Positions 4,527 through 43,468 of a stretch of DNA of 43,734 nt are shown here, piece after piece; position 1 is the stretch's first letter; every line of letters starts with the position of its first letter. The position numbers and the translations under genes were made by a program. This DNA comes from Lachnospiraceae bacterium (lineage in GTDB: Bacteria; Bacillota; Clostridia; Lachnospirales; Lachnospiraceae), in the NCBI GenBank assembly GCA_030524705.1, contig JAUNGD010000025.1, positions 1 through 43,734 of the forward strand, read 5' to 3'. The notes beneath the pieces were generated by a model, which saw nothing but the letters and a program-made list of their open reading frames with translations, was not told the DNA's origin and did not search any database.

Positions 4527-4530
4527 AGTC

Positions 4531-22684: not shown

Positions 22685-22707
22685 GTTCATTAATAGAAGG
22701 AGGATAA

Positions 22708-23987: not shown

Positions 23988-24105
23988 AAATAAGGATGGG
24001 ATAGTTGGAAGAAGTATTATACAAGTGAAATTTCATTTCCATTCATATGGAATAACAAAAAGTCCTTTGTCCTGATGTGCTTCAAAAAATCTTGTGAGAG
24101 TATGA

Positions 24106-24459: not shown

Positions 24460-24559
24460 GCAGCACCCTTGCACATCTTCCAGGGAATATATGCAATCTA
24501 TTATCCGCAAAGAGAACGGAGATTTGTCTGCCGGACTTAAGACCACAGAGAACAAAGCA

Positions 24560-24616
24560 CTTTGTGAAAAATTGTAGAAAATTCACAAAGCGGCGGCTTT
24601 ATGGTAGTGCTATAAT
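24560..24616 (+). promoter_or_regulatory. Extended -10 promoter with a 9-bp operator-like inverted repeat
   Basis: TGcTATAAT at 24608-24616 is an extended -10 with no good -35. Just upstream, CTTTGTGAA (24560-24568) and TTCACAAAG (24582-24590) form a perfect inverted repeat with a 13-nt spacer, covering the -35 region. It would drive the HAD phosphatase and nitroreductase genes. The half-sites resemble Rex-type TTGTGAA, but the spacing differs from a normal Rex site, so the regulator is unknown. Confidence 0.6.
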
Positions 24617-25331: not shown

Positions 25332-25365
25332 AAGAACGCAAATTTGGAAAGTGAGGACAGGGAAT

Positions 25366-25887
25366 ATGGAAAATCAGTTTTTGGAAATGATCAGGACCAG
25401 GAGAAGCGTGCGTGCATATCGGACGGATGCGGTTCCAGAAGAACTTCTGGATGCGGTGCTGGAGGCCGGAACCTTTGCACCTACTGGCGGAGGGAGGCAG
25501 TCCCCGGTTATCGTAGCAGTTAGGGAAAAGAACCTTCGGGAGAAGCTTGCACGGTTAAATGCGTCTGTGATGGGAGCGGAAACAGATCCCTATTATGGCG
25601 CTCCAGTGGTGGTACTCGTGCTGGCAAAAGCAGCCGCCAGTACCTGTGTGGAGGATGGAAGCTGTGTACTGGAGAATATGATGCTGGCTGCCCATGCGGT
25701 AGGACTGTCCAGTGTGTGGGTACACAGGGAAAAGGAGATGTTTGAGAGCGAGGAAGGGAAGGCTCTTTTAAGAGAGTGGGGACTTCCTGATACACTGCGT
25801 GGCATTGGTGCGATCGCTTTGGGTTATGCGAAGGAAGAGCCGGAGCAGGCGGCCTTAAGAAAGGAAGACTATATTCTCAGAAAATAA
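25366..25887 (+). CDS. Nitroreductase-family flavoprotein
   Basis: A 173-residue protein of the small nitroreductase family (FMN-dependent NAD(P)H oxidoreductases). It opens with IRTRRSVRAYRTDAVPEELL, the FMN-phosphate binding RRSVR motif, has APTGGGRQSPVIVAV, an SCVLENMMLAAHAVGLSSVW dimer segment and a GAIALGYA ending. Substrates in this family vary widely (nitroaromatics, quinones, enones) and cannot be told from sequence. The ATG at 25366 follows GAGGACAGGGAAT; a GTG at 25351 is the alternative. It lies 34 bp after the HAD gene and shares its promoter. Confidence 0.85.
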   Translation: MENQFLEMIRTRRSVRAYRTDAVPEELLDAVLEAGTFAPTGGGRQSPVIVAVREKNLREKLARLNASVMGAETDPYYGAPVVVLVLAKAAASTCVEDGSCVLENMMLAAHAVGLSSVWVHREKEMFESEEGKALLREWGLPDTLRGIGAIALGYAKEEPEQAALRKEDYILRK

Positions 25888-26003
25888 TAAGTGTTTTTAG
25901 GATCAGCTGCAGTTTGGCAATAAAAGCGGTTTGGCAAAAGGCAGAGTATCGGTTAATACCGGTAACAGTCCAGACGGGCGGCAAATCTTATAAGAAAGTG
26001 ACA

Positions 26004-26078
26004 CACAAGGAAGCGACAGTCCCATAGAATCCGGACTTTTTCAAAGCCTGGATTCTATGGGACTGTCGCTTCCTTGTG
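26004..26078. repeat. 29-bp perfect inverted repeat between convergent genes
   Basis: Arms 26004-26032 and 26050-26078 are exact reverse complements with a 17-nt loop. The repeat sits between the rightward nitroreductase gene and the leftward pucR gene and probably ends both transcripts, though it has no U-run of the usual kind outside the stem (the only T run is in the loop). A 12-base piece of the arm (TCTATGGGACTG) resembles TCTATGGGGCTG at 32595-32606 in a second imperfect inverted repeat, suggesting a dispersed repeat family. Confidence 0.75.
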
Positions 26079-26094
26079 CCCAATGGCAGTCCGG

Positions 26095-27711
26095 CTATGA
26101 TGTAGGCTCAGGGAACGCCTTCGGGTAGTGAACTGTGTAGAACAGCCTTAGTGCCAGCTCCAGAGAGAACCGGTCATTCACATCATGCAGATCAATTCCC
26201 AGAGTTTTCTGGATGTTTTTCAGACGGTAGGTAACGGTATTGTAGTGGGCAAACAGCTCTTCGGATACCCGTTTCAGATTCCCCTGGTTTTTCAGATAAC
26301 TTTCCAGGGTGCGCAGCAGTTCAAGATTGCGTTCCTGGCTTGTATCCGCCAGTTCCCCTAAGGTTTCCTCAATAAAAAGGCTGATTTCATACTCCGGGTT
26401 ATCGGAATAGACAAAACGGAGCAGGCCAAGCTCTTCAAACCGCAGGAAAGACTGGCGGCTGTTTGAAACGGCCTGGAAGGCAATAGCGGCCTCGCGGTTC
26501 CCTTGGGCGATTCCGGTAATTCCTATATGGGGGCGGCTGCATCCGATCCTGATTTTCAGGGCGCTGTAGGTAGATGGAAAGGAGCGAGTAAGGAGGGAAA
26601 GCTGCCGCACAAAGTCTTTTTCACAAAATTCAGGTCCGCTTAATAGGAGGATATAGGCCGGAGCTGTTTTTATAATCTGTGTCTCCATGCCCAGAACCGC
26701 AAACTGGTATGAGATGCTGTTAAGCAGCAGGGAGTGCTGGAAGACACAGATACTTTCGTTGCTGCCAGGCATATGATCCGCTTTCAGATAAAGTACAGTA
26801 TGAAAATCATTGATAGGAAAACCAAGCCGTTCTGCACGTGCAGCCTCCCATGTTTCATCGATGATCTGGTCCGAGAGAAGATGGAGAATAAAGTTGGAAA
26901 GCTCACTGGTACGGGCAGCACGGAGACTCTGGGTCTTGGTAATCTCCAGAGGAATAATATGGAGAATCTGTATCAGGATGTCCATGGGAAGGTAGGTTGA
27001 AAGATCGGTTCCGTACAGATAAAGATATCCGAACACCGTGTTATCAACCTGGATTTCATGCATCCGGGAGCCGGAAATCAGCATCTGGGCCTGCTCATCG
27101 TAGCTGAGGTGGGAAAGCGTATCCGAGTCCCCGGGAGCAATTGTTATGGCCCGGAGGTTATTGACCGTATCCAGGATCATCACACTGCTGTGTGAAAGGC
27201 CGCTGATCATATAGGCAATTTCATCCAGTCCCGCTCCATTGATAATGATATTGGTCAGGATATGATTGACGGAGAGGGCACTTGTCAGAGATTCTGTCTG
27301 GCGTTTCATCAGCTCATCCGAAATATCTTTTGTGATGGCAGAGAAACGTATATCTTCCGACAGTTCAATGAGAGGGATGCGGTACTGGTTGGACTGCACC
27401 AGCATGTAATCGGGGATTATTTTCAGATACTGGTACGGCTTGATGAAAACAGCAGAGATTTCCTGCTGTGCCAGGGTAGGGATAAAGCTTTTCAGCATAT
27501 CCGGATTCTGATGGATGGCAAAGCAGGAGGTAATCAGGATTTCATGAGGCTGCAGCCAGCGGTAATATTCTGGGGTATCGCTTAGGTTGAAGCCATGAAT
27601 CGGATTGTTAAGCCCTGCCTGGCCTGAGCGCAGGATACAGTCCTGGAAGACTGGCAGTTGCAGCAACTCAGCAACGTTGGGATATAAAATCGGTAACTCT
27701 ATAGGATTCAT
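26095..27711 (-). CDS. PucR-family transcriptional regulator
   Basis: A 538-residue regulator with the PucR layout: an N-terminal domain (about 10-130, ILRSGQAGLNNPIHGFNLSD onward), a middle domain of about 250 residues likely to bind the effector, and the C-terminal HTH_30-type helix-turn-helix (about 465-525: TLESYLKNQGNLKRVSEELF, then AHYNTVTYRLKNIQKTLGID). PucR of Bacillus controls purine catabolism in response to intermediates. Here the gene is divergent from the AllH-AllF-AllG genes, 190 bp away, and is their probable activator. GGAGG lies 7 nt before the ATG. The sequence GGTAACAGTCCAGA occurs once on each side of the gene (25961 and 27741). Confidence 0.88.
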   Translation of the reverse strand: MNPIELPILYPNVAELLQLPVFQDCILRSGQAGLNNPIHGFNLSDTPEYYRWLQPHEILITSCFAIHQNPDMLKSFIPTLAQQEISAVFIKPYQYLKIIPDYMLVQSNQYRIPLIELSEDIRFSAITKDISDELMKRQTESLTSALSVNHILTNIIINGAGLDEIAYMISGLSHSSVMILDTVNNLRAITIAPGDSDTLSHLSYDEQAQMLISGSRMHEIQVDNTVFGYLYLYGTDLSTYLPMDILIQILHIIPLEITKTQSLRAARTSELSNFILHLLSDQIIDETWEAARAERLGFPINDFHTVLYLKADHMPGSNESICVFQHSLLLNSISYQFAVLGMETQIIKTAPAYILLLSGPEFCEKDFVRQLSLLTRSFPSTYSALKIRIGCSRPHIGITGIAQGNREAAIAFQAVSNSRQSFLRFEELGLLRFVYSDNPEYEISLFIEETLGELADTSQERNLELLRTLESYLKNQGNLKRVSEELFAHYNTVTYRLKNIQKTLGIDLHDVNDRFSLELALRLFYTVHYPKAFPEPTS

Positions 27712-27740
27712 AGGAAGACCTCCGGGGTTTGCTGCCAGAT

Positions 27741-27866
27741 GGTAACAGTCCAGATACGCCCGGAACGGTTACGTCAGCAGCTTTCTGGATATCATGATAC
27801 AACAAAATTATAGCGGTTACTTTGTGGACAGTCAACATAGAATCATATGTTTTTTTTCAATATAAT
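27741..27866 (+). promoter_or_regulatory. Divergent control region between pucR and the allHFG-type operon
   Basis: A -10 box TATAAT at 27861-27866 lies 36 bp before allH. No good -35 is 16-18 nt upstream, which fits activator dependence. GGTAACAGTCCAGA at 27741-27754 is repeated exactly at 25961-25974 on the other side of pucR. GGTTACG at 27768 is a partial reverse complement of the GGTAAC half, so the two could form a PucR site. Confidence 0.5.
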
Positions 27867-27901
27867 AACAGATGTAAACAAAAAGAAAGGGAATTGGGAA
27901 T

Positions 27902-28744
27902 ATGAATATGGCAGAATGCAGATACATGTGCAGGACTCTTGCGCAGCAGCTTACAAAAGCATGGATAGGGATCACACTGCATTCTTCCTTTCAGAGTGCC
28001 GCGAATTTTTCATCCCCTATGGGAATGATAACGGTTTTGCATCCCGGACGGGGGCTTCAGCCCTATTCGGCGGTATTGGAGCAGCCCTTTTCTTTTGAAC
28101 AGCTTCAGGATGGCATATGGTACATAAACAGCGAAGGAATCAGCGGGCCGGGAAAACGGGTGTTTTCTTTTGAAACCGCACAGAGGCGGAACACACTGCT
28201 GGATCACCGGCCCCGGTGGAGGCAAAACGCAGGGCTGTATCTGCTGGAGTTCCTGGGCGGACATAGGGATCAGGGGCTGACAGCAATGGCTTTTGGAGAC
28301 TATACGGACATGTACCAGGAATTTCTTGCACCCCGCATCCATGCACTTCGCAGTGCGGTGCGAAGCAGGAACGAAGCGGACATTGTCCGGGCAGCACAGC
28401 AGATGGCTGGTTGCGGTATTGGGCTGACGCCTTCATCCGATGATTTCCTGTGCGGCTATCTGTTAGGTATGCCGGAGCTTGGGATACCGGGACTGAAGGA
28501 ATCAATGGCCGCTGCTGCTGCGAAGAAGACGAATGATATCAGCGCGGCCCTCCTTACCAGAGCCGGGCAAGATCTGTTTTCCTGCGATATCCTGGAACTG
28601 ACAGTCTGTCTGGAATTGGAAGTTCCCCAGGAGAGACTTTGGAAAGCACTGGAACGGGTTGCTGCCTTCGGGAGCAGTTCGGGATGCGATTTTTTGACCG
28701 GGCTGTATGCTGGTATAACAGAAAATAATGAAATGGAGGAATAA
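27902..28744 (+). CDS. allH: AllH-like (DUF2877) subunit of oxamate carbamoyltransferase
   Basis: A 280-residue DUF2877 protein. It has the family's glycine-rich motif GCGIGLTPSSDDFLCG (about 169-184) and a C-terminal GSSSGCDFLTGLYAG (about 258-272). In Escherichia coli, AllH (YlbF) together with AllF and AllG has been linked to the oxamate carbamoyltransferase step, oxalurate plus phosphate giving oxamate and carbamoyl phosphate. It is the first gene of the PucR-divergent operon, with GGGAAT before the ATG, and its last codons contain the Shine-Dalgarno of the next gene. The family is clear; the natural substrate in this cluster is inferred. Confidence 0.85.
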   Translation: MNMAECRYMCRTLAQQLTKAWIGITLHSSFQSAANFSSPMGMITVLHPGRGLQPYSAVLEQPFSFEQLQDGIWYINSEGISGPGKRVFSFETAQRRNTLLDHRPRWRQNAGLYLLEFLGGHRDQGLTAMAFGDYTDMYQEFLAPRIHALRSAVRSRNEADIVRAAQQMAGCGIGLTPSSDDFLCGYLLGMPELGIPGLKESMAAAAAKKTNDISAALLTRAGQDLFSCDILELTVCLELEVPQERLWKALERVAAFGSSSGCDFLTGLYAGITENNEMEE

Positions 28745-28747
28745 AAA

Positions 28748-30304
28748 GTGAAAAGACTGGAAGTTCGCAAGAATGCGTACTATGATTCCGTGACACTCAT
28801 GATCATTTCAAAGGAAGTGAAAAAGATTGATGGTGTTCAGGAAGCACTGGTTGGCATGGGAACCGATTTGAACCGTGAGCTGGCAGGACGTACTGGGCTT
28901 GATACGGAGGGATTTGACACGGTAACCGCCAATGATTTTTTTGTAGCGGCAGAATGTGATAACGAAGATACCTTTGAAAAAGTAATCGCAATGGTAGACG
29001 AGATGCTGAACAAAAAGGCGGCAAAGAGCAAAAGCGATTATTTTCCGCCAACACTGGAAGGTGCGTTAAAGATTGATCCGGATCTGAATTTGGCAATCAT
29101 CTCTGTTCCTGGACGGTTCGCAGCAGAGGTGGCCCAGAGCTGTCTGGAACATGACATCAATGTCATGCTGTTCAGCGATAATGTAACCATTGAGGAAGAA
29201 AAAGCATTAAAAGAGTATGCCTATTCCAGAGAACTGCTACTTATGGGGCCTGATTGTGGAACAGCGATTATTAATAATACTCCTCTGGCCTTTGCAAATG
29301 TTGTCAAAAGTGGTGACATTGGACTGGTATGCGCTTCCGGTACCGGAGCACAGGAGGTGTCCAGCATCATCGACCAGCAGGGCGGCGGCATTTCCCAGCT
29401 GCTTGGAACCGGCGGAAGAGACCTTAAGGCAGAGATTGGCGGCCTTATGATGAAGCTTGGACTGGATGCGTTAAAGCATGATGAGCATACAAGGGTGATT
29501 ACCCTGGTATCCAAACCGCCGGCACCTGAGATTGCAGAGGAGATTCTAAAGCTTGCTGCTGATACTGGAAAACCGGTGGTGGTCTGCTTCATCGGCGGGG
29601 AAGCGGCAATGATTGAGAAATATGGTTTGACAGCAGCCGTTTCCCTGGAAGACGCGGCAAAAAAGGCAGTAGCATTATCAAAGGGCCGGAAGCCGGAAAC
29701 ATTCGTTTCTTTTGACATAGGTGAGGAGAAGGCAGCAGAACTTGCCAGGGCTGAAAGCTCCAGGATGAAAGCAGGACAGAAGTATATCCGGGGTCTGTAT
29801 ACGGGCGGAACTTTGTGTGATGAGGCAATGAAGCTTCTGATCGAAGATCTGGGCCATATTTATTCCAATATTCCGCTGGTGCCCGGGGACAGGCTGGCAG
29901 ATGCAAAGAACGGAAAAGCTGTGGAAAATACCTTCCTGGATTTTGGGGATGATGAATTTACAGTAGGGCGTCCTCATCCGATGATTGATCCATCTCTGCG
30001 TGCAGAGCGCGTAGTAACAGAAGCGGAAGATCCGGAGACAGCAGTTGTTCTGGTGGACTGTGTGATTGGCTATGGTTCCCATGAGGATCCGGCACAGGAA
30101 TTATCCGAAGCCATTGTGAAGGCAAAGGAGTTGGCCGCAAAGGACGGATGTTATCTTGCGGTTGTTGCCACCGTATGTGGTACGGAAGGGGATCCGCAGA
30201 GCAGATCCGCAACTCAGAGAAAATTGGCGGAGGCTGGTGCTGTGGTGATGCCGTCCAATGCACAGGCAGCCAGATTCGCAAAGCTTGTTCTGGAGAATCG
30301 CTAA
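28748..30304 (+). CDS. allF: AllF/FdrA-like acyl-CoA synthetase-fold protein
   Basis: A 518-residue FdrA-family protein related in fold to succinyl-CoA synthetase alpha subunits. It carries LLMGPDCGTAIINNTPLAFA (about 164-183), the CASGTGAQEVSSI phosphate-loop-like segment (about 195-207) and GTGGRDLKAEIGGLMMK (about 220-236). The family's C-terminal part (YTGGTLCDEAMKLL, RPHPMIDPSLRA, DCVIGYGSHEDPA) is complete. With AllG and AllH it forms the carbamoyl transfer unit. The start is GTG, with GGAGG overlapping the end of allH, so translation is coupled. It acts in the cytosol. Confidence 0.88.
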   Translation: MKRLEVRKNAYYDSVTLMIISKEVKKIDGVQEALVGMGTDLNRELAGRTGLDTEGFDTVTANDFFVAAECDNEDTFEKVIAMVDEMLNKKAAKSKSDYFPPTLEGALKIDPDLNLAIISVPGRFAAEVAQSCLEHDINVMLFSDNVTIEEEKALKEYAYSRELLLMGPDCGTAIINNTPLAFANVVKSGDIGLVCASGTGAQEVSSIIDQQGGGISQLLGTGGRDLKAEIGGLMMKLGLDALKHDEHTRVITLVSKPPAPEIAEEILKLAADTGKPVVVCFIGGEAAMIEKYGLTAAVSLEDAAKKAVALSKGRKPETFVSFDIGEEKAAELARAESSRMKAGQKYIRGLYTGGTLCDEAMKLLIEDLGHIYSNIPLVPGDRLADAKNGKAVENTFLDFGDDEFTVGRPHPMIDPSLRAERVVTEAEDPETAVVLVDCVIGYGSHEDPAQELSEAIVKAKELAAKDGCYLAVVATVCGTEGDPQSRSATQRKLAEAGAVVMPSNAQAARFAKLVLENR

Positions 30305-30316
30305 GGAGGTCGTGAA

Positions 30317-31741
30317 ATGAGTAAAGTAAACGAATTGTTTGGCAGGAAGCTTTCAGTAGTAAATTTCGGTATTGAGTCCTTTTACCAGGATCAGGTAAAA
30401 CAGAATACGCCAGCGGTCCATGTGGACTGGAAGCCCATCGCAGGGGGAGACAGGAAGGTAGCAGGTTATCTGCGCCAGCTGAAGAAGCCGGAACTTCTGG
30501 AGAAGATTACTGCAGCTAACAAGGAAGCCTTATCTAGGATTCTGGGCGCACAGCCGTATCTGGTAGGAATGTCCACTGCAGGCGAGTCAGTTCCGGGGAT
30601 GACGCCGAAGACGATCCTGCATGCCGGCCCGCCTGTGACCTGGGAGAATATGTGCGGTCCTATGAAGGGAGCGGTGATGGGAGGCCTGATCTATGAAGGA
30701 CTTGCATCCAGTCTTGAGGAAGCGGAAAAACTGGCAGCCAGTGGGGAAATCACATTCTCACCCTGCCATCACCATAATGCAGTAGGACCTATGGCGGGTG
30801 TTGTGACCTATCATATGCCAGTCTGGAAAGTGGTAAACAAGGCCTTCGGCAATGAGGCCTACTGTACTATGAATGAGGGGCTGGGCAAGGTACTCCGTTT
30901 CGGTGCTTGTGACCAGGAAGTGTTCGAACGCCTGAGAAGGATGAAGGAGGAATACTATCCGGTATTAAAGGAAGCTCTTGCGCTTCATGGCGAGATTGAT
31001 ATGAAAGTGATGATTGCCGAGGCGCTGCAGATGGGAGATGAAGGACACAACCGCAACCGCGCCGGTACATCCTTGTTTATCAGGAAGATTATGCAGGATG
31101 TATATCACACCAGCTTCCCTAGGGAGCAGCAGGATGCCGCGCTGAAATTCCTGAACGATAATGATCATACCTTCCTGAATCTGACTATGCCTACCTGCAA
31201 GAGTACGATGGATCCTACGTTTGATATCCCATTCAGTACAATTGTCAGTACCATGTGCCGCAATGGCACTGAATTTGGCATTCGCGTAGCTGGTCTGGGC
31301 CGTGAACAGTGGTTTACGGCACCTGCGGAATATATCCGTGGTCTGTATTTCCCAGGATTTTCCGAAGAAGACGCCAACCGGGATATCGGAGACAGCTGTA
31401 TCACAGAAACAACGGGAATCGGCGGTTTCTGTATGGCGGCATCTCCTGCAATTGTGCAGTTTGTAGGCGGACAGGTCCAGGATGCAATCAACTATTCCTC
31501 CCAGATGTATGAAATCACGGTCGGAGAAGGCAATGCCTATAAGATTCCGGTTCTGGATTTTCGCGGAAGCGCAACGGGCATTGATATTATGAAGGTCATT
31601 GAGTCAGGTATCCGCCCAATCATTAACACGGGAATTGCCCATAAAGAATATGGAGTGGGACAGGTAGGAGCAGGACTGGTGAATCCGCCTGAGGACTGTT
31701 TCAAGAAAGCGATTGCTGCTTGTGCCCAGGCCTGGGCTTAA
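30317..31741 (+). CDS. allG: AllG-like (DUF1116) subunit of oxamate carbamoyltransferase
   Basis: A 474-residue DUF1116 protein, full length for the family. It opens with KVNELFGRKLSVVNFGIESF. Then come the WKPIAGGDRKVAGYL segment, HAGPPVTWENMCGPMKGAVM (about 97-116), FSPCHHHNAVGPMAGVVTYH with a triple His (about 151-153), and GDEGHNRNRAGTSLF, all typical of YlbE/AllG. AAGGAGG precedes the ATG. It follows AllF by 12 bp, the same F-G neighbour order as in enterobacteria. The partner set AllFGH is complete here, so carbamoyl phosphate formation is likely. Confidence 0.88.
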   Translation: MSKVNELFGRKLSVVNFGIESFYQDQVKQNTPAVHVDWKPIAGGDRKVAGYLRQLKKPELLEKITAANKEALSRILGAQPYLVGMSTAGESVPGMTPKTILHAGPPVTWENMCGPMKGAVMGGLIYEGLASSLEEAEKLAASGEITFSPCHHHNAVGPMAGVVTYHMPVWKVVNKAFGNEAYCTMNEGLGKVLRFGACDQEVFERLRRMKEEYYPVLKEALALHGEIDMKVMIAEALQMGDEGHNRNRAGTSLFIRKIMQDVYHTSFPREQQDAALKFLNDNDHTFLNLTMPTCKSTMDPTFDIPFSTIVSTMCRNGTEFGIRVAGLGREQWFTAPAEYIRGLYFPGFSEEDANRDIGDSCITETTGIGGFCMAASPAIVQFVGGQVQDAINYSSQMYEITVGEGNAYKIPVLDFRGSATGIDIMKVIESGIRPIINTGIAHKEYGVGQVGAGLVNPPEDCFKKAIAACAQAWA

Positions 31742-31775
31742 GATAAAACTATAAAAGAAAAAGGAGAATAAAACT

Positions 31776-32573
31776 ATGAACTGGTCAAGTGTAAAAATGT
31801 ACGATCTTTCAATCCCGATTGGAATCAGCACCCCTCCGTGGCCGACCTATGAGCCCCTTCAGGTAAAGTATTTTAAGAGGCTCGCGCCAAATGGAGCAAA
31901 TGGTCAGCTGGTTACCCATTCCAACCATGTAGGAACCCATCTGGACGGTCCGCGCCACTTTGATACATCCGGCAGGGATATTGCAGCTCTGGAGCTTGAG
32001 AAGCTGGTAGCTCCCGGTGTTGTGGTAGATCTGCGGGACCAGATGGAGGACTTTGGTATCTACACTCCGGAGGATATTGAGAAGCGTGCAGAGGTACGGG
32101 AAGGAGATATCCTGATCATCAATACTGGTTACCATATCTATGGATGGGATCAGCCACAGGCAGATGAGCGCCGTTATATGCTGCGTCATCCCGGTCCGTC
32201 ACTGGATTTCATTTCATGGGCACGCCAGAAGAAGCTGAAATGGATCGGCGTGGACTGTGGTTCCGCAGACCATCCGATGAACACCAAGATCCGTGACTGG
32301 GAGCCTATGGAGGCAGAAAAGTGTGACCGGATTTTCCGCGAGAAATACGGGAAGAGTCTAAATGAGATTTATCCGTGGCCCGAGCATTACCAAGCAATGC
32401 ATTTTGAGCTGTTCTGTCAGCCCTATGAAGCAATCCACGCAGAATGTATGGGAGGAGAGATTGACAAGCTTTCCAACAAGCGTGTGGTAATCGGCTGCTT
32501 CCCGTGGAAGTTTGTGGATGGCGAGAGCTGCATCAGCCGGATTGTAGCATTTGATGGGTTTGACAATATTTAA
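31776..32573 (+). CDS. Cyclase-family metal hydrolase (kynurenine formamidase/isatin hydrolase-like)
   Basis: A 265-residue protein of the cyclase family (PF04199). It has the metal-binding motif HSNHVGTHLDGPRHF (about 48-62), preceded by YDLSIPIGISTPPWP, and later IINTGYHIYGW, WIGVDCGSADHPMNT and QPYEAIHAECMGGEI. Members of this fold open cyclic amides or hydrolyse formamides (isatin hydrolase, kynurenine formamidase) using Mn or Zn. In this operon it is the best candidate for opening the ring of a deaminated heterocycle to a ureido or carbamoyl acid for AllFGH. AAAAGGAG lies 9 nt before the ATG. The actual substrate is unknown. Confidence 0.8.
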   Translation: MNWSSVKMYDLSIPIGISTPPWPTYEPLQVKYFKRLAPNGANGQLVTHSNHVGTHLDGPRHFDTSGRDIAALELEKLVAPGVVVDLRDQMEDFGIYTPEDIEKRAEVREGDILIINTGYHIYGWDQPQADERRYMLRHPGPSLDFISWARQKKLKWIGVDCGSADHPMNTKIRDWEPMEAEKCDRIFREKYGKSLNEIYPWPEHYQAMHFELFCQPYEAIHAECMGGEIDKLSNKRVVIGCFPWKFVDGESCISRIVAFDGFDNI

Positions 32574-32598
32574 TGAAACGTTGATTACACCAGTCTAT

Positions 32599-32696
32599 GG
32601 GGCTGTCAGAAATGACATTTATATGCAATATATTGTAGCAATATTCCTTGGATTATCAGATATATTGTGGTTTTGCGGCCATTTCCCGACAGTCCC
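32599..32696. repeat. Imperfect inverted repeat between the cyclase and amidohydrolase genes
   Basis: GGGGCTGTCAGAAATG (32599-32614) is an imperfect reverse complement of the segment 32680-32696 (CATTTCCCGACAGTCCC). The space between is AT-rich and holds CAATATATTG near 32627. It fills most of the 166-bp gap and may be a processing or termination hairpin dividing the operon. It shares a short motif with the inverted repeat at 26,004. Confidence 0.5.
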
Positions 32697-32739
32697 TTTG
32701 CACTTTATCACCAATATATAAAATCGGGGGCTGTACAGG

Positions 32740-33942
32740 ATGAAATACGATCTTTTAATTATCAATGCAAATACAAGAAAATACGGTGACGGGCAGATGA
32801 TTGCCGTGAAGGATGGCAGAATTACGGCTATTGGAGCCAGCCTGAAGCAGGATGCGGCACAGATTATAGATGCAAAAGGCAATCTGGTAACAGAATCATT
32901 TGTTAATGGGCATCTGCATCTGTGTAAGGTATTCACTCTGGAGATGGCTGGACAGGCAGCTCTGGGTGAGTATCATACAAGCGGAATGGGAGGTGCAATG
33001 ACCTCCATTGAGAGAGCGGCGGATTTTAAGGCTGCTTATGATGAATCCTGGATTCTTAGGAATGTCCGCGAAGCCTGCAATATGGCACTAAGGCATGGGA
33101 ACACCCACATCCGTGCATTTGCGGATGTGGACCCAAAGGCACGCCTGGAGGGCGTTAAAGCTTTGATTAAGGCCCGGGAGGAATATAAAGGTAAGGTGGA
33201 GCTGCAGGTGGTGGCGTTTCCTCAGGATGGTATTGCCCGTGAGCCAGGTACAGAGGAACTGATGCGTCAGGCCATGGATCTGGGAGCAGATGTGGCAGGG
33301 GGCATCCCGTGGATGGAGTACACAAAGGAGGAGGAGCAGGCCCATGTTGATTTTGCCTGCGGTCTGGCAAAGGAATATGACAAAGGGATTTCCATGCTGT
33401 TAGACGATGTGGGTGACGCTGGCGAGCGCACACTGGAGATGCTCTGCAAAAAGTCCATTGAGATGGGGTGGCAGGGCCGTGTAACTGCCCAGCACTGCCG
33501 TGCAATGGAACTGTACAATGAAAACTATTTCCGTAAGCTGACTGCTTTGATGAAGAAGGCCGGAATCGGTCTGGTCTCTGATCCTCATACAGGCCCCCTT
33601 CATGCAAGGGTAAAGGATTTACTGCTGGCGGGTGTTCCGGTTGCACTGGGGCAGGATGATATTTCCGATGCCTATTATCCGTATGGGGAGTGTAACATGC
33701 TGCAGGTTGCTTTCCTGGCAAGTCATCTGCTGTGGATGACCAGCTTTGCAGATATGGAACTACTGTATGATATGGTTACAACCGGCGCAGCCAGGGTTCT
33801 GGGAATCAAAGGCCATACTCTGGAGGTAGGCGGCAACGCGGACCTTGTGGTTCTGGATCAGAAAGATGTATGGCATGCAATCTGGAAACATACACCTCCG
33901 GTATACGTAATCAGGAATGGTGTGGACGTGACCTTGAGATAA
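32740..33942 (+). CDS. Cytosine deaminase-like amidohydrolase with altered metal site
   Basis: A 400-residue amidohydrolase of the CodA group. It has VNGHLHLCK (HxH near residues 58-60), GRVTAQHCRAMELYNENYF (His near 250), LGQDDISDAYYPYGECNMLQ (Asp near 305) and the VGGNADLVVLDQKDVWHAIW ending, all in CodA order. The usual VHxDE segment, which gives a metal-ligand His and the catalytic Glu, reads MLLDDVGD here (about 217-224), so the His is replaced by Leu and the Glu by Asp. That may change metal content or the reaction. The start has GGGGGCTGTACAGG upstream, a weak site. Deamination or hydrolysis of a pyrimidine-like ring is likely but not certain. Confidence 0.82.
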   Translation: MKYDLLIINANTRKYGDGQMIAVKDGRITAIGASLKQDAAQIIDAKGNLVTESFVNGHLHLCKVFTLEMAGQAALGEYHTSGMGGAMTSIERAADFKAAYDESWILRNVREACNMALRHGNTHIRAFADVDPKARLEGVKALIKAREEYKGKVELQVVAFPQDGIAREPGTEELMRQAMDLGADVAGGIPWMEYTKEEEQAHVDFACGLAKEYDKGISMLLDDVGDAGERTLEMLCKKSIEMGWQGRVTAQHCRAMELYNENYFRKLTALMKKAGIGLVSDPHTGPLHARVKDLLLAGVPVALGQDDISDAYYPYGECNMLQVAFLASHLLWMTSFADMELLYDMVTTGAARVLGIKGHTLEVGGNADLVVLDQKDVWHAIWKHTPPVYVIRNGVDVTLR

Positions 33943-34029
33943 AGCCTAAAGGACTGGAGTAAATGCAATGAAAACAGGTAACGGATCAATGGGTATCTGT
34001 TGCAAAAATACATATTGGAGGAGTTATCA

Positions 34030-35328
34030 ATGAAAGCGATACCGAAGGGATATTCTCTTAATGAGTTTCCGGCAATGAAGGAAGCGCTGCCTTTAAGCCT
34101 TCAGCATGTGCTGGTGCTGATCTTTAATGTACTTCCAGTACCTCTGCTGATTGGTGCTGGTGCAGGGTTAAGTGCCTCTGAGATTACGATTCTTGTGGCA
34201 GGCTGTATGTTTGTAACGGGAATTGCTACTTTGATCCAGACAATTGGCGTAGGGCCGGTGGGGGCCAGACTGCCTCTTCCAATGGAAAACAGCTTTGTGT
34301 TCGTGGCACCAGGCATTGCCTTGAGCGCCCGGTATGGTCTTGGCAGTTTTACCGGGGCCTGTCTGGCTGGAAGTATTGTTACCTGTATGATCTGGATGGC
34401 TTTTCACAGACAGCTCCAGAGTCTGTTTAAGCCCTATATCGCAGGGGCTGTCATTATGTCTCTGGGTCTGAGCCTGATTGGAGTCGGAATTAATTATTGT
34501 GCAGGTGGTCAGGGAGCCGCTGATTTTGGAAGTGCAGGAAACTTGTTTCTGGCCCTGGGAACGATTTTGATCATGCTGCTTCTGAACCATTATTGCAGTA
34601 AGAATTTTCTCTCCAAGGCTTCGCCTCTGATTGCCATTGTAGCGATGTCTGCTGTGGCAGCGGCCTTCGGCAAACTGGATCTTTCCAGCGTAGCTGGTGA
34701 ATCCTGGTTCCGTTTCCCTATGCTTCTCCATTTTGGAATAAAATTTGAGATGGGACCAGTGTTTACCATCAGTGTATTATCCGTGATTGCGCTTGTGGAG
34801 CTGATGGGGGATCAGTCTCTGGCGGCTGCTCTTGCTAAGGGTGAAGCGCCTTCCAGCCGGGAGATAACAGGCGGTATTCTGGCGCAGGGTGTAAGCTCAG
34901 TGGTGGCAGCCTTATTCAACCTTTGTCCAACTATTGCAGGCTGCGCCAATATCGGCCTGTGCAGTATTTCCGGTGTAATGAGCCGCTATGTTACGGCTTT
35001 GGCAGGAGTGATTGTGCTGATATGTGGATTCTGTCCGAAGCTCTGTGCGTTATTCGAGGCAATTCCGTCCGCAGTTATCGGAGGTGTTGTCCTCTCTGCC
35101 TTTGGTTCCATTGTGGTATCGGGAATGAAGGTGATCCTTTCGGAAGAGCTTACAGCCCGTACAGCCACCATCGTCGGGGTATCCCTTGCTGTCGGAATTG
35201 GATTTTCTGTAGTACCGGAAGCTATCGCGGTACTGCCATTATGGGCCTCCACTTTATTTAGCGGTGTTCCGGGAACCGCAATTACAGCAGTGGTGCTCAG
35301 CATCCTTTTGAAAGAAAATACTCAATAA
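34030..35328 (+). CDS. NCS2-family xanthine/uracil permease
   Basis: A 432-residue membrane transporter of the nucleobase-cation symporter-2 family (UraA/UapA/PbuX). It has about 12-14 hydrophobic segments and the opening LQHVLVLIFNVLPVPLLIGA. Helix 3 carries GVGPVGARLPLPMENSFVFV, and the substrate region around ELMGDQSLAAALAKGE is followed by CPTIAGCANIGLCSISGVMS. The usual NCS2 Gln/Glu pair is not in its normal wording, so the substrate may be unusual. GGAGGAG precedes the ATG at 34030; a TTG extension to 34000 is unlikely. It would import the heterocyclic substrate of this operon with protons or sodium. Confidence 0.88.
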   Translation: MKAIPKGYSLNEFPAMKEALPLSLQHVLVLIFNVLPVPLLIGAGAGLSASEITILVAGCMFVTGIATLIQTIGVGPVGARLPLPMENSFVFVAPGIALSARYGLGSFTGACLAGSIVTCMIWMAFHRQLQSLFKPYIAGAVIMSLGLSLIGVGINYCAGGQGAADFGSAGNLFLALGTILIMLLLNHYCSKNFLSKASPLIAIVAMSAVAAAFGKLDLSSVAGESWFRFPMLLHFGIKFEMGPVFTISVLSVIALVELMGDQSLAAALAKGEAPSSREITGGILAQGVSSVVAALFNLCPTIAGCANIGLCSISGVMSRYVTALAGVIVLICGFCPKLCALFEAIPSAVIGGVVLSAFGSIVVSGMKVILSEELTARTATIVGVSLAVGIGFSVVPEAIAVLPLWASTLFSGVPGTAITAVVLSILLKENTQ

Positions 35329-35408
35329 ATCAATATCGGGAGGAGGTAAGGAATTGCTGCCAGGCCTGCTTCGGGGGGTTTGATGCCGTGCAGTTCCTGA
35401 AAGTGAAC

Positions 35409-36812
35409 ATGAAATATACATTATATAAAAATGCTGACTGGATTATTACGATGGATGATGAACGTACCAGACTGCGCCATGGGGATCTTCTGGTGTGCGG
35501 CAATCAGATTCAGGCGATTGGAAAGAATCTGGAAAAGCAGTATCCGGATATTAAGATGGACCGGGTAATAGATGCATCTGGAAAACTTCTTGTGCCCGGA
35601 TTTGTCAATACCCATCATCATACCTGGCAGGCCCTGATCCGAAACATTAAGGCGACCCAAGGAATGTCTTTGGAACCATGGCTGACCGTTATGTATGAAA
35701 TATATAAGGATTTAAATCAGGAGGTCGCAAGGGCCGGAATTTACGCAAGCCTGGGCGAGGGTATGAAGTCCGGCTGCACCACCTCCAATGACTTGTGGTA
35801 TCCACACCCGGTGTATGTGGAAGGACTGATGGATGCGGAGATTGAGGCCGCCAAAGAGATTGGAATCCGTTTCCATCCAGTACGTTCCTATCACTCGGTT
35901 GTCAGCGATGTGGTGTGCCCTGAGGTGGTAGACACGACGGAGCGGGTGATGGCGGACGCAGAGCGGCTTGTGGAGAAGTATCATGATCCGGATACGTTTT
36001 CCATGTGCCAGGTTGCCATTGGTCCCAGCATTGCCCAATACGATACAGAAGAGATTTTAAGGGCGACCATTGATTTTGCGGAAAAGCATGATATTATGGT
36101 GCACGGGCATCTGGCTGAGAGCGTATTTGAAACTCAGTATACCATCGAAAAATTTGGCTGCCGCCCAGTGGAATGGTTCCGGCGCCACGATCTTCTTGGA
36201 GACCGTTTTTATTATGCCCATTGTATACACCTGGATGATAATGATATCCAGATAATGGCCCGGACAAACACGGGCGTATCCAGTTGTCCTATTTCCAATA
36301 TGTATCTGAGCTCGGGCTCCTGCCGCGTGAAGGATATGCTGAATAGTGGGATTAAGCGGATTGGGTTAGGAGTGGATGGTGCAGCCAGCAGCAATACCTC
36401 CAATTTTATGGAGGAAATGCGGGTGTCCTATCTGCTGAATCGTCTGAGCTATGGCAGCGGGTCTTGTACGGCAGAGGATATTCTGTATATGGGAACCCGT
36501 GGAGGGGCCAGGAGTATGGGCCGTGAGGATATTGGATATTTGGCTCCCGGAATGGCAGCGGATATTACCATGCTGGACTGGGGGCAGCTGCAGTATGCGG
36601 GAGGCTGCAATGATCCGGTGGACTGTATCGTTATCAGCGGAGATGCCCGGATGGTGGACATGGTGATGGTTAATGGTGTAATCACTGTGGAGAAAGGACA
36701 CCTCACTCTTGTAAAAGAAGAGGAAAAACGGGATTATGCCAACCAGATTGGCCGGGAACTGCTTTCCAGGGCATCCGCACGGATACCTGGACTGAAGGCT
36801 GACCTTCAGTAA
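35409..36812 (+). CDS. 8-oxoguanine deaminase-like amidohydrolase (TrzN/AtzB/SsnA group)
   Basis: A 467-residue amidohydrolase. It has PGFVNTHHHTWQALIRNIKA (metal HxH near 69-71), VHGHLAESVFE (His near 232), YAHCIHLDDNDI (His near 272) and RIGLGVDGAASSNTSNFMEE (Asp near 324), the complete set for an aminohydrolase. The SSCPISNMYLSSGS and GVDGAASSN segments are close to those of 8-oxoguanine deaminases, while the wider family includes triazine hydrolases and guanine deaminase. It would deaminate a purine- or triazine-like ring. The start is unclear: ATG at 35409 has no good Shine-Dalgarno, and an in-frame GTG at 35388 is the alternative, while GGGAGGAGG lies too far upstream at 35339. Confidence 0.85.
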   Translation: MKYTLYKNADWIITMDDERTRLRHGDLLVCGNQIQAIGKNLEKQYPDIKMDRVIDASGKLLVPGFVNTHHHTWQALIRNIKATQGMSLEPWLTVMYEIYKDLNQEVARAGIYASLGEGMKSGCTTSNDLWYPHPVYVEGLMDAEIEAAKEIGIRFHPVRSYHSVVSDVVCPEVVDTTERVMADAERLVEKYHDPDTFSMCQVAIGPSIAQYDTEEILRATIDFAEKHDIMVHGHLAESVFETQYTIEKFGCRPVEWFRRHDLLGDRFYYAHCIHLDDNDIQIMARTNTGVSSCPISNMYLSSGSCRVKDMLNSGIKRIGLGVDGAASSNTSNFMEEMRVSYLLNRLSYGSGSCTAEDILYMGTRGGARSMGREDIGYLAPGMAADITMLDWGQLQYAGGCNDPVDCIVISGDARMVDMVMVNGVITVEKGHLTLVKEEEKRDYANQIGRELLSRASARIPGLKADLQ

Positions 36813-36843
36813 ATCTTGAGTGATAAAAGGTTTCTGTTCACGG

Positions 36844-36973
36844 CCCGGTTGATCACCACGCTGATCAACTGGGAGGATGCACATAATGGTTGGAATCTGG
36901 GCCGCCCCATTACCACAGGTGATTTCAAATGGCGGCCCAGGTTACTATTTACAGCTGCTCCGTGAATAGTAAC
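36844..36973 (+). promoter_or_regulatory. Three consecutive hairpins upstream of the carbamate kinase gene
   Basis: The 184-bp gap before the carbamate kinase holds three stems. The first is 12 bp with one G-T pair (36844-36855 with 36862-36873). The second is a perfect 10-bp stem, CTGGGCCGCC/GGCGGCCCAG (36897-36906, 36931-36940). The third is a perfect 9-bp stem, GTTACTATT/AATAGTAAC (36941-36949, 36965-36973). None has a U-tail, so this looks like a structured leader or mRNA-processing region and not a plain terminator. No match to a riboswitch I know. Confidence 0.55.
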
Positions 36974-36996
36974 GATAAAAGAAAGGACGCGGTAAA

Positions 36997-37938
36997 ATGG
37001 GAAAACGAATCGTAATTGCATTGGGCGGAAATGCGCTGGGAGGCACCCTGGATGAGCAGGCGGCAGCCGTAAAGAATACAGCAAGGGCAATTGCAGATCT
37101 GATTGAGGAGAACCATGAGGTGATTGTGGCTCATGGAAACGGACCACAGGTGGGTATGATCCAAAAGGCAATGACAGCTCTTCACAAGCAGGAGCCGGAG
37201 AAATATGGTCTTTGTCCATTATCAGTTTGTGCAGCTATGAGCCAGGGCTACATCGGTTTCGATTTACAGAAAGCCCTGAGGGATGAACTGGCCCGCAGGG
37301 GGATCAAAAAGAATGTGGCGACTGTTCTGACACAGATAGAGGTGGATAAGGAGGATCCAGCCTTTTCCAATCCTTCTAAGCCAATTGGAACCTACGTGAC
37401 AAAACAGGAGGCAGACAGACTGATCCGGGAGCGGGGGTTCACTTTCGCGGAGGACGCGGGGCGTGGTGTGCGCCGTGTGGTTCCATCCCCCCGGCCAGTA
37501 TCCATTGTTGAACTGGATGTCATCCGCCGGCTCATGGAGGATGGGGAGGTGGTCATTGCCTGCGGCGGAGGCGGAATTCCGGTGGTACGCAGCGACCAGG
37601 GCAGTTATGAGGGAGTGGAGGCGATCATTGATAAGGATTTTGCTTCTGCAAGACTGGCTGAGGAGATTCATGCAGACTATCTGATCATCCTGACAGCAGT
37701 GGAGAAGGTTGCCGTAAATTTTGGAAAGCCGAATCAGAGATGGCTGAATTCCATGGACATAGAGGAGGCAGAGGCGTACATCCGGGAGGGTCAGTTTGCA
37801 CCTGGCTCTATGCTTCCCAAGGTGCAGGCCGCAATACAGTTTGCGTCCTCTGCCAAAGGGAGAAACGCCCTGATAACCCTTCTGGAAAAGGCAAAAGAAG
37901 GGATTGCCGGAAGTACTGGCACGATAATACATGTATAG
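36997..37938 (+). CDS. arcC: Carbamate kinase
   Basis: A 313-residue carbamate kinase of normal length. It has IVIALGGNALGG at the N-terminus, AHGNGPQVGMIQKA, GIKKNVATVLTQIEVDKEDP, PSPRPVSIVELD, VIACGGGGIPVV and EAIIDKDFASARLAEEIHAD, which together cover the carbamoyl phosphate and ATP sites. The reaction converts carbamoyl phosphate and ADP to carbamate and ATP, with carbamate falling apart into ammonia and CO2. In allantoin-using enterobacteria the equivalent enzyme works directly after AllFGH. Here it would draw energy from carbamoyl phosphate made by the same set. AAAGGACG precedes the ATG. Confidence 0.95.
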   Translation: MGKRIVIALGGNALGGTLDEQAAAVKNTARAIADLIEENHEVIVAHGNGPQVGMIQKAMTALHKQEPEKYGLCPLSVCAAMSQGYIGFDLQKALRDELARRGIKKNVATVLTQIEVDKEDPAFSNPSKPIGTYVTKQEADRLIRERGFTFAEDAGRGVRRVVPSPRPVSIVELDVIRRLMEDGEVVIACGGGGIPVVRSDQGSYEGVEAIIDKDFASARLAEEIHADYLIILTAVEKVAVNFGKPNQRWLNSMDIEEAEAYIREGQFAPGSMLPKVQAAIQFASSAKGRNALITLLEKAKEGIAGSTGTIIHV

Positions 37939-37974
37939 GAATCCACAAATGGACGGATGAAGGAGGCAGGGAAG

Positions 37975-39357
37975 ATGATCGAAAACAACCATGAACAGGA
38001 GCTTAACCCAATCGCCAGAATGGGAAATGTACTGCTGCGTTTTTCAATGAAATATATGCCGGACGCCAGCATTTTTGCAGTGCTGATCACGGTGGTTGCA
38101 TTTGCAGCCGGAGTTCTCCTGACAAGTCAGGGACCGGTTCAGATGATGGAAAACTGGTATCGGGGCTTCTGGGAACTTTTAACCTTTTCCATGCAGATGA
38201 GTCTGATTGTAGTAACAGGCTCTGCCGTGGCCAACTCTCCGGCAATCAAAAAGGGGATCAGGCGTATCGCAAAGATTCCCGGGAGCGGGGCCCAGGCAGT
38301 TGGACTGGTAGCATTCCTCTCTATTCTGATCTCCTATCTTCACTGGGGCTTGTCGCTGATTGTCAGTGCGCTGCTCGCCAGGGAGGTGGCAGGAAATCTG
38401 AGAAGGAGAAATATCTATTTTGAATATGGTCTTATTGCGGCGGCAGCCTATGTGGGGCAGATGACCTGGCAGGGAGCCTTGTCGTCATCCATAGGTCTTT
38501 CCATTGCCTCATCCGGGCATATTCTGGAAAGCGAAATGGGAATTATCCCCATGTCCCGGTACATGGGAAATATGATCAATATTGTCACATCCGCCGCACT
38601 GCTGGTGTTTCCTCCGTTGTTTGCGATGATGATGCATCCGAAAAAAGAAGGAATCTCTCCGTTGGAACCGATGGCTCTGGAAGCGATTGAGAAAGAAGAT
38701 GCGGCGGCGCTTACTATACCGGAAAATCCGTCAGTGGGGGATCGGCTCAACTACAGCTTTGTCATTGCAGGGATTTTTGGCATTATGGGATGGATTTATA
38801 TTGTTTATGCATTTGCTGAAAAAGGATTTTCCGCTCTGGATATTAATATGGTAAACTTTATCTTTCTGTTTTCAGGATTACTCCTTCACCGTAATATTGC
38901 CAATTATGTGCGCGCAGTGGGGGAGGCAGTCAGTGGAGCGGCGGGAATTATTTTTCAGTTTCCCTTATATGCTGGGATTCAGGGAATTATCAAGTATTCC
39001 GGTCTTGTAGGCATCATGTCCTCAGCTATTGCAGCCGTTTCAACCCCGGCTACATTCTATTTATGGATTTTCTTTGGATCGGCTGTGATCAGTATATTCG
39101 TGCCTTCTGGCGGGGGACAATGGATGGTTTTGGGACCGATTGCCATCGCCTCGGCGAAAATGCTTGGTGCTGACCTTATAAAAACCAGTCTGATGGTGGG
39201 TTATGGGCACACCTGGATCAACATGTTCCAGCCCTTCTGGGCCATTGCTCTTTTGGGAATCACAGGACTGAAGGCAAAGGATATCATGGGGTATTCTACA
39301 GCGATTATGTTTTGTGGCGGGGTGATCTATATTCTGACAAGTTTTTTGCCTGTATGA
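37975..39357 (+). CDS. AtoE-type short-chain fatty acid transporter family protein
   Basis: A 460-residue membrane protein with about 12 hydrophobic segments. It matches the short-chain fatty acid transporter family (AtoE, PF02667) by the N-terminal PIARMGNVLLRFSMKYMPDA, the HWGLSLIVSALLAREVA segment, and the hallmark IFVPSGGGQWMVLGPIAIAS (about 374-393). GGAGG 8 nt before the ATG at 37975 selects that start over one at 37957. As the last gene of the catabolic operon, it may export or import a small carboxylate such as the acid left after carbamoyl removal. That role is inferred from position only. Confidence 0.85.
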   Translation: MIENNHEQELNPIARMGNVLLRFSMKYMPDASIFAVLITVVAFAAGVLLTSQGPVQMMENWYRGFWELLTFSMQMSLIVVTGSAVANSPAIKKGIRRIAKIPGSGAQAVGLVAFLSILISYLHWGLSLIVSALLAREVAGNLRRRNIYFEYGLIAAAAYVGQMTWQGALSSSIGLSIASSGHILESEMGIIPMSRYMGNMINIVTSAALLVFPPLFAMMMHPKKEGISPLEPMALEAIEKEDAAALTIPENPSVGDRLNYSFVIAGIFGIMGWIYIVYAFAEKGFSALDINMVNFIFLFSGLLLHRNIANYVRAVGEAVSGAAGIIFQFPLYAGIQGIIKYSGLVGIMSSAIAAVSTPATFYLWIFFGSAVISIFVPSGGGQWMVLGPIAIASAKMLGADLIKTSLMVGYGHTWINMFQPFWAIALLGITGLKAKDIMGYSTAIMFCGGVIYILTSFLPV

Positions 39358-39428: not shown

Positions 39429-40703
39429 ATGCCAAATTTAGTAAAGCCCATTAACCTTACAGATGATGATAAAGCCACTTTAGAGGGGATCCTCCGCCAA
39501 AGCACTGTAGAAGCAAGAACCTACATCCGGGCTAAAGTACTGCTGCTCTAATCAGAACACATGTCAGATGAGGCAATTGCAGATAAACTGGACATCTGCG
39601 TTATGGCTGTAAGGCTATGCATTAATAAATATAATGTCGGCGGCATTAAAGCAGCCTTACAGGACAACGAGGGGCGCGGGCGTAAAGCTGAGATCACAGA
39701 TGCGGATATTACCTGGGTCATTAACAAGGCCTGCCAGAAACCAAAAGACTTTGAGTATTCGGCCGAATTATGGTATCCAGCCAGCTTTACACGCTTTATC
39801 AATTCCATTACAGAGTAGGAAGGGCATCCCCGTATGGCGTCTGTGACTGAGACAACGCTGTGCAAGATACTGGCAAAGGCAAAGATCCGTCCTTTTAAGA
39901 TATCTTACTACTGTGAGAGGCGCGATCCGGATTTTGATTCCAAAATGCATGATGTCCTTGTTATTTATAAACAGCTTTCCCTGCAGTTTGACAGGGAAGG
40001 GAACCTCCTGCTGTTTGAGGGGATGCCGGTCCATACCCTGTCCTATGACGAAAAGCCCGGGATGCAGGCGCTGGATACTACCGCTGACGACAGACAACCA
40101 GTCCCGGGTACAGAAAAAAACAGCACGGTATCCCGGGACTATGAATATGTTCGTCTGGGTACGCTGTCGCTGCTTGCCGTCATTGACCTGCTTACCAGCG
40201 AAGCGATCCCCCTTGTAAGCCCAACCCACAAAAGTTCTGATTTCGTGCGTTTTCTGAAGATGCTGGACGGGAAATACCCTGCTGGTGATAAAATACGCTT
40301 CATCCTTGACAACCATTCTGCCCATACCTAAAGGGAGACTCAGGAATACCTGAATACAGTACCCGGAAGGTTTGAATTTGTATTTACACCAACTCATGGC
40401 TCGTGGCTGAACATGGTGGAAGCCTTCTTCAGTAAGCTTACAAAGCAAATGTTGAATGGCATCCGGGTTTCGAGCAAAGAAGAATTGGAAAGCCGGATTT
40501 ATCAATACTTTGATGAAATCAATCAAGTTCCTGTTCCATACCACTGGTCTTACAAGCTTGATGATATAGACCTTGACAAAGAGGATATCAGCCAGATTGT
40601 CTATGAAGTGGTAAACCATAAAGCTGCTAATGCATGTGATAAGGATAAGCGTGCTCCCAAGCCCCGAACAAGGAAGCGGCAGGGACAGGATAATCAGGGA
40701 TAA
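39429..40703 (+). pseudogene. IS630-family transposase interrupted by three in-frame stop codons
   Basis: One reading frame from the ATG at 39429 to 40703 encodes a whole IS630-type transposase, broken only by TAA at 39549, TAG at 39816 and TAA at 40329. Recognisable parts are the N-terminal HTH (MSDEAIADKLDICVMAVRLC), the DDE domain with SYDEKPGMQAL (first Asp), RFILDNHSAHT (second Asp) and FTPTHGSWLNMVEAFFSKLT (Glu), and a basic tail. No frameshift is needed to join the parts. Each stop could come from a single base change, such as TTA or TCA to TAA. GGGAGG lies before the start. I did not find convincing terminal inverted repeats, so element ends are not given. Confidence 0.85.
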
Positions 40704-43430: not shown

Positions 43431-43468
43431 TCGTTGCCTGCGGAAATAAAAAGTCAGGGGTGATACAG

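Follow-up and report, generated by a model that had tools for sequence, protein, structure and literature searches.

The window analysed here, a stretch of 43,734 nucleotides, is the entire contig C112 (GenBank JAUNGD010000025.1) of a Lachnospiraceae bacterium assembly (GCA_030524705.1; 3.87 Mb, 88% complete). It contains an operon (27902–39357) that encodes the three proteins of an AllFGH-type transcarbamylase together with a carbamate kinase, a cyclase-family hydrolase, two amidohydrolases and two transporters. The operon is real, coherent and distinct from the allantoin route, and it appears to be one form of a widespread module in which AllFGH is linked to the cyclase-family protein. No description of such a cyclase-linked AllFGH module was found in the literature searched. 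We tentatively propose, at a little under an even chance, that the module degrades a pyrimidine-type ring by phosphorolysis and harvests ATP. The gene content, the conserved clustering and an ancestry apart from that of the genome's allantoin AllG are established by the comparisons below.

The operon consists of nine genes, all on the forward strand with intergenic gaps of 3 to 184 bp, and is flanked by the divergent gene of a PucR-type regulator (26095–27711, reverse strand; Pfam PucR 93 bits, HTH_30). An initial annotation, made from the sequence of the window, had described these nine co-directional genes and the divergent PucR, and both were borne out: the open reading frames (ORFs) match in position, and the families hold in Pfam and NCBIfam, with Pfam support for all ten proteins and an NCBIfam match for all except AllH. 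The first three genes encode AllH (DUF2877; 27902–28744; Pfam AllH 77 bits), AllF/FdrA (28748–30304; NCBIfam FdrA 495 bits, above cut-off) and AllG (DUF1116; 30317–31741; Pfam AllG 312 bits). They are followed by the genes of a cyclase-family hydrolase (PF04199; 31776–32573; Pfam Cyclase 120 bits), which is proposed to perform the ring-opening step, an AtzC/CodA-like amidohydrolase, A (32740–33942; best solved match AtzC), an NCS2 nucleobase permease (34000–35328; Pfam Xan_ur_permease 230 bits; NCBIfam pbuX 333 bits, under cut-off), a second amidohydrolase, B, similar to 8-oxoguanine deaminase and AtzB (35388–36812; NCBIfam 8-oxoguanine deaminase 420 bits), a carbamate kinase (36997–37938; NCBIfam arcC 380 bits, above cut-off) and an AtoE-type short-chain acid transporter (37957–39357; Pfam SCFA_trans 409 bits). 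Two hallmarks of an AllFGH system are present in this one operon, namely the AllF, AllG and AllH families together and a carbamate kinase. The HxxxHxD motif of the cyclase is invariant in all 18 aligned proteins.

The operon block probably extends further left, from about 24678 to 39357, taking in a HAD-family phosphatase (24678–25331, forward strand; Pfam HAD_2), which is probably its left edge, and a nitroreductase-family flavoprotein (25351–25887, forward strand; Pfam Nitroreductase), a recurrent member of the module, because the order HAD phosphatase, nitroreductase, PucR and AllH is conserved in loci L003 and L028 (Flavonifractor) and L004 (uncultured Eubacteriales). At the block's left edge, two open frames that overlap each other (24075–24459) may represent a decayed gene.

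The initial annotation had also stated that the allantoin pathway is missing. This is correct for the window, where tblastn with C117 and Escherichia coli proteins found no AllB, AllC, AllD or AllE at 80 bits or more outside the genes named above, but not for the assembly, whose contig C117 carries an allantoin cluster (G000:C117; positions 4105–17327 of locus L045). The cluster encodes the allantoinase AllB, the ureidoglycine aminohydrolase AllE and the ureidoglycolate dehydrogenase AllD, which all exceed their NCBIfam cut-offs. Also encoded are a permease of NCS1 type that stays under its cut-off, a protein of the allantoate amidohydrolase type that passes a subfamily cut-off but not the one for AllC, an AllF-AllG fusion some 1000 residues long and the cluster's own carbamate kinase. 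A degenerate or broken allantoin operon in the window was therefore rejected as an explanation, since the assembly owns this separate set.

Among 73 AllG proteins placed in a tree, the one from C117 is paired with E. coli AllG (support 100/99), whereas the window AllG lies outside the clade of E. coli AllG and belongs to a set of 12 proteins (100/99), 11 of which have a cyclase nearby and one of which is near a contig edge. The window operon is thus a second transcarbamylase system in this genome, because the C117 AllG groups with E. coli AllG and the window AllG with the cyclase-linked AllGs. Across the tree, the label "cyclase nearby" changes 8 times, compared with 22.6 times when labels are shuffled; the cyclase-linked AllGs are clustered on the tree, not one clade.

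A scan with the window AllG yielded 42 loci (L003–L044), of which 19 contain AllF, AllG and the cyclase together, and module-bearing contigs include ones titled Spirochaetes, Bacteroidota, Elusimicrobia, Oligoflexia and Aminicenantes. The cyclase itself was matched in 3 of 144 relatives (own genome included), in none of the 20 same-genus genomes listed, and in 40 of 398 genomes of a phylum sample (own included), at 46 places. From these places 38 stretches were taken; the remaining eight comprise the window, two places within stretches already taken and five that were left out. In 31 of the 38 stretches, both AllF and AllG are no more than 8 kb from the cyclase; two of the other seven (L142 and L161) have the cyclase within 240 bp of the stretch end. 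A chance array of genes was rejected, as the module recurs in many genomes.

Gene neighbourhoods were compared over 88 loci, consisting of 51 AllG loci with a cyclase, 27 without, and 10 without an AllG match (among them L049 and L051, where the stretch ends beside the cyclase). Neighbours were counted with profiles within 9 kb of AllG, or by tblastn where stated, and not from automatic ORF picks, which are antisense in several loci; the Fisher tests ignore the relatedness of loci, and 31 of the 51 cyclase-linked loci were found via the cyclase. On this basis, NCS2 permeases occur near 28/51 cyclase-linked and 2/27 other AllG loci (Fisher p 2.5e-5), the large subunit of a molybdenum hydroxylase near 28/51 and 1/27 (p 4e-6), and PucR near 33/51 and 6/27 (p 7e-4). 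Nitrilase (16/51 against 1/27, p 0.004), nitroreductase (12/51 against 0/27, p 0.006), type III CoA-transferase (10/51 against 0/27, p 0.013) and thiolase (12/51 against 1/27, p 0.03) show the same direction, as do MmdA (6/51 against 0/27, p 0.087) and AtoE (4/51 against 0/27, p 0.29). MmdB was matched near 8/51, a count that includes matches in L003, L004 and L028 (33%, other strand, beyond the HAD gene) taken as unrelated. Carbamate kinase (29/51 and 17/27) and amidase (10/51 and 8/27) do not separate the two kinds of AllG. By tblastn, AllC, AllD and AllE are each found near 0/51 cyclase-linked loci, versus 6/27, 3/27 and 3/27 other loci respectively, and an AllB-like protein near 1/51 versus 2/27. 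The picture is the same for loci with at least 12 kb of flank (43 versus 19 loci).

Several further features of these loci were observed. Among those without the cyclase, L121 has annotated xanthine permeases next to AllG, and L167 has a putative purine transporter near it. A GNAT-like protein, a label that is our own reading with no match in Pfam or NCBIfam, is found by tblastn near 13/51 cyclase-linked loci. Thiolase, zinc-ribbon (ChsH2/DUF35-like) and GNAT-like proteins accompany the molybdenum hydroxylase versions in L135, L141, L143, L163, L014, L015 and L027. The conjugative Rhodococcus plasmid L124 (NZ_CP145321.1), excluded from the counts, carries a partial DUF1116 AllG some 11 kb away from a homologue of the cyclase (38%).

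Clues to the substrate come from L127, where 15 same-strand genes adjoin PucR in the order AllH, AllF, AllG, CoA-transferase, cyclase, carbamate kinase, nitrilase, nitroreductase, MmdA, gamma, MmdC, MmdB, CoxM, CoxS and CoxL; the nitroreductase inside this operon is at 6966–7463. The carboxyltransferase scores 755 bits with the methylmalonyl-CoA decarboxylase alpha subunit (NCBIfam cut-off 999), the beta subunit of a sodium-pump decarboxylase scores 514 bits, above cut-off, and a gamma-chain protein and a biotin carrier are also encoded. In L148 and L149, the decarboxylase sits between AllH and AllF. Going by these family assignments, the decarboxylase suggests a product of the malonyl or methylmalonyl type. 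Uracil or thymine degraded via barbiturate would be the simplest substrate, because the module combines a carbamoyl and a malonyl unit, a nucleobase permease and a first oxidation by a molybdenum enzyme.

The same neighbours can be read in terms of a purine or another ring. The cyclase would open a ring that is fused or otherwise different, such as a xanthine-type ring to yield a ureido-imidazole acid, and AllFGH would remove the carbamoyl group from the product. PucR is named for purine catabolism, and the nearest families, none of them reaching its cut-off, are xanthine permease for the window permease, 8-oxoguanine deaminase for amidohydrolase B and XdhA for the L127 molybdenum hydroxylase. 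A malonyl-type decarboxylase does not fit such a substrate, however, and inspection by eye of the unassigned neighbour clusters of at least three loci recognised no purine-ring gene. We consider a purine or other ring unlikely.

The malonyl-type decarboxylases, present near 6/51 loci, likewise do not fit the C2 product expected if the cyclase opened parabanate to oxalurate, with AllFGH as an ordinary oxamate carbamoyltransferase and oxamate exported by the AtoE-like protein. According to its title, a 1965 paper cited in PMC11326118 reportedly describes an oxamate transcarbamylase induced by parabanic acid in a Streptococcus, which would speak for this route. Further points in its favour are the L127 CoA-transferase, whose best match, although below cut-off, is CoA:oxalate CoA-transferase, the action of E. 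coli AllFGH on oxalurate and oxamate (PMC11326118), and the formation of parabanic acid when uric acid is oxidised (PMC5703782). On the other side, parabanic acid hydrolyses spontaneously to oxaluric acid at neutral pH (PMC5703782), so an enzyme would be less needed. The position of the window AllG outside the E. coli AllG clade argues against this route as well, and no oxalyl-CoA decarboxylase was recognised by eye among the unassigned neighbour clusters of at least three loci. The parabanate route appears distinctly improbable, slightly more so than a purine ring.

For the pyrimidine-type ring, a scheme can be outlined in which we infer every substrate, product and direction of transport. 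The NCS2 permease would import the base, which a three-subunit molybdenum hydroxylase (in many relatives) or the amidohydrolases (in the window) would convert to a cyclic acylurea, for which barbiturate is the most likely candidate. Opening of its ring by the cyclase-family hydrolase would give ureidomalonate, which is oxalurate with one additional CH2. By analogy with the conversion of oxalurate to oxamate, AllFGH and phosphate would then yield malonamate and carbamoyl phosphate, and carbamate kinase would form ATP from the latter. Malonamate might be carried on to acetyl-CoA in some relatives, by a nitrilase or amidase together with a type III CoA-transferase and the sodium-pumping biotin decarboxylase; the window's AtoE-type protein may export the acid that is left. 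Export of malonamate is a guess modelled on oxamate, which is not further metabolised in E. coli (PMC11326118). The ring catabolism envisaged by the initial annotation, through a ureido acid to carbamoyl phosphate and ATP and apart from the allantoin route, stands as an interpretation, and its purine-, pyrimidine- or triazine-like ring is refined here to a pyrimidine-type one, since the comparison of gene neighbourhoods suggests a C3 diacid as the product.

The first step would differ among versions of the module. No molybdenum-type uracil-oxidising enzyme, as in the oxidative pyrimidine pathway, is present in the window set, and PF01315 was not found in the window's own assembly (88% complete), nor in the L005 or L008 genome. 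PF01315 domains do occur elsewhere in the genomes of L003, L004, L007 (Schaedlerella arabinosiphila) and L028, whose operons also lack the molybdenum hydroxylase. A haloarchaeal plasmid (L122; NZ_CP099392.1) has the cyclase close to CoxMSL-type genes, a carrier of NCS2 type and a CoA-transferase, with neither AllF nor AllG matched in the 28.7 kb stretch, as would be expected if another enzyme performed the last step there.

In the window, amidohydrolases A and B may prepare amino-substituted pyrimidines, which is the weakest step of the scheme. Amidohydrolase A matches the solved structures of AtzC (190 bits) and cytosine deaminase (181 bits) nearly equally. The active site of these two enzymes, which we take to comprise HxH, the His and Glu of beta-5, the His of beta-6 and the Asp of beta-8, is incomplete in the alignment of A: LLDD replaces the HCDE of cytosine deaminase, changing the beta-5 His to Leu and Glu to Asp. 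This departure from the deaminase metal site is common to A and six close homologues, which retain HxH, the beta-6 His and the beta-8 Asp. Amidohydrolase B, at 420 bits, does not reach the cut-off of the NCBIfam 8-oxoguanine deaminase equivalog (532); its solved-structure matches are 3hpa (310 bits) and 7ww2 (305 bits), and its metal-site residues align with those of 3hpa. Both amidohydrolases that the initial annotation placed on a shared route are present, and a joint deaminase role is weakened by the two motif residues missing from A. L010 holds A as well as CoxMSL; therefore, A is not simply a stand-in for the molybdenum hydroxylase.

The resemblance of A to AtzC suggests another route: the pair of amidohydrolases would do the work of AtzB and AtzC, producing cyanurate, and the substrate of AllFGH would be a biuret-like product. 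The second-best solved match of B is named both 8-oxoguanine deaminase and hydroxydechloroatrazine ethylaminohydrolase, and allFGH and carbamate kinase genes are reported beside triuret genes in comammox Nitrospira (PMC12625717). The match of A to cytosine deaminase is nearly as good, however, the wider module includes molybdenum hydroxylases and nucleobase permeases, and the cyclase has no match to the cyanuric acid hydrolase family in Pfam. A triazine or biuret substrate is very improbable.

Several observations weigh against the degradation of a pyrimidine-type ring by a distinct AllFGH branch. E. coli YahG, with no cyclase nearby, falls on a long branch among the cyclase-linked AllGs, the cyclase label needs the 8 changes on the tree mentioned above, and relatedness of loci is uncontrolled in the neighbour counts. 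MmdA, near only 6/51 loci (p 0.087), is under its NCBIfam cut-off in L127, whose CoA-transferase scores best with CoA:oxalate CoA-transferase (390 bits, cut-off 522) and would suit a C2 acid. Thiolase (12/51) and the GNAT-like protein (13/51) have no place in the scheme. The window operon is without a molybdenum hydroxylase, nitrilase, amidase, CoA-transferase or decarboxylase, so its product is less constrained, and simple deamination to barbiturate by amidohydrolase A is unsure because Leu and Asp stand where cytosine deaminase has His and Glu. The activities of the module's proteins are predicted from their sequences.

The most far-reaching form of the proposal is possible, though we lean somewhat against it: that anaerobes of several phyla have an undescribed, ATP-yielding oxidative pyrimidine pathway with a cyclase-family barbiturate hydrolase and a ureidomalonate-phosphorolysing AllFGH paralogue, with some of these anaerobes gaining energy a second time at a sodium-pumping malonyl-CoA decarboxylase, and that some bacteria, the window's included, have a molybdenum-free form for amino-substituted pyrimidines. 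If true, this would allow anaerobes to live on pyrimidines and gain ATP from them.

The operon is surrounded by genes of mobile elements. On its left, a conjugation module (135–24000) includes a relaxase (reverse strand), a coupling protein, a TraG-type ATPase and their neighbours (Pfam Relaxase, T4SS-DNA_transf and P-loop_TraG on three proteins), the combination of relaxase, coupling protein and type IV secretion ATPase that marks an integrative and conjugative element (ICE). On its right are pieces of a transposase, which we take to be IS630-type (39429–40703, forward strand; Pfam DDE_3 on the piece at 39834–40331, with adjoining ORFs at 39429, 39561 and 40413), a sigma-70 region 4 protein, a DUF6870 protein and the N-terminal end of a serine recombinase (43460–43732, forward strand; Pfam Resolvase), open at its 3' end where the contig ends. 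The G+C content is 42.4% for bases 1–22000, 46.1% for 22000–24600, 49.9% across the operon and 41.3% at the window's right end, compared with 47 to 51% in stretches from three other contigs. The G+C content and flanking genes fit cargo of an element but also a locus flanked by two insertions; ICE cargo status is plausible but unproven. The linkage to ICE genes noted in the initial annotation is plausible in the window, with the three conjugation proteins on the left and the truncated recombinase on the right, but was not seen elsewhere: 22 conjugation and mobile-element proteins of the window had no match at E 1e-6 in any of the 42 other loci (L003–L044), up to 10 kb on each side, a search that other conjugation families would escape. 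Regular travel of the operon with conjugation genes was accordingly not upheld. The recombinase most like that of the window (82% DNA identity) is on a contig of G068, where only a DUF6870 protein, recombinases and one HD-domain protein were matched, and no operon gene. No empty element was available for comparison, because the 2.2 kb of DNA left of the block gave four short, weak matches in 193 other genomes and a large conjugation protein gave no match at E 1e-40.

Genes for the AllFGH transcarbamylase were identified in 2024, with oxalurate as the substrate (PMC11326118). The cyclase-linked branch could be a second substrate class of AllFGH, and for AllFGH/FdrA paralogues without an assigned role, such as that of the E. 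coli yah operon, the question becomes which acylurea they split. The anaerobic allantoin system of E. coli, with AllFGH and the carbamate kinase AllK, has the same three subunit families and a kinase that turns carbamoyl phosphate into ATP. The window operon differs from it in having no allantoin genes, in the additional cyclase, amidohydrolases, NCS2 permease and AtoE-type protein, and in an AllG of another branch. The E. coli set yahE-fdrA(yahF)-yahG-yahI-yahJ shares AllH, AllF, AllG, carbamate kinase and an amidohydrolase with the window and has no allantoin genes beside it; this combination alone is therefore not new. The yah set has no cyclase and no NCS2 permease in the 25 kb shown, and YahJ retains both the His and the Glu missing from amidohydrolase A. 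The yah genes are also found on plasmid-labelled records, such as L123 (NZ_AP023209.1), where the neighbours look chromosomal.

In the oxidative pyrimidine pathway of aerobes, uracil is converted via barbiturate and ureidomalonate to urea and malonate. The proposed scheme shares these intermediates, but would employ a cyclase-family protein in place of barbiturase and phosphorolysis with a gain of ATP in place of hydrolysis to urea. As in the scheme, phosphate splits a ureido group to carbamoyl phosphate for ATP in the E. coli urate cluster ygeW-yqeA (PMC12507026). That cluster differs in its transcarbamylase, unrelated to AllFGH (PMC11326118), and in its hydantoinase-type enzyme and reductive chemistry, both unlike the scheme proposed for the window.

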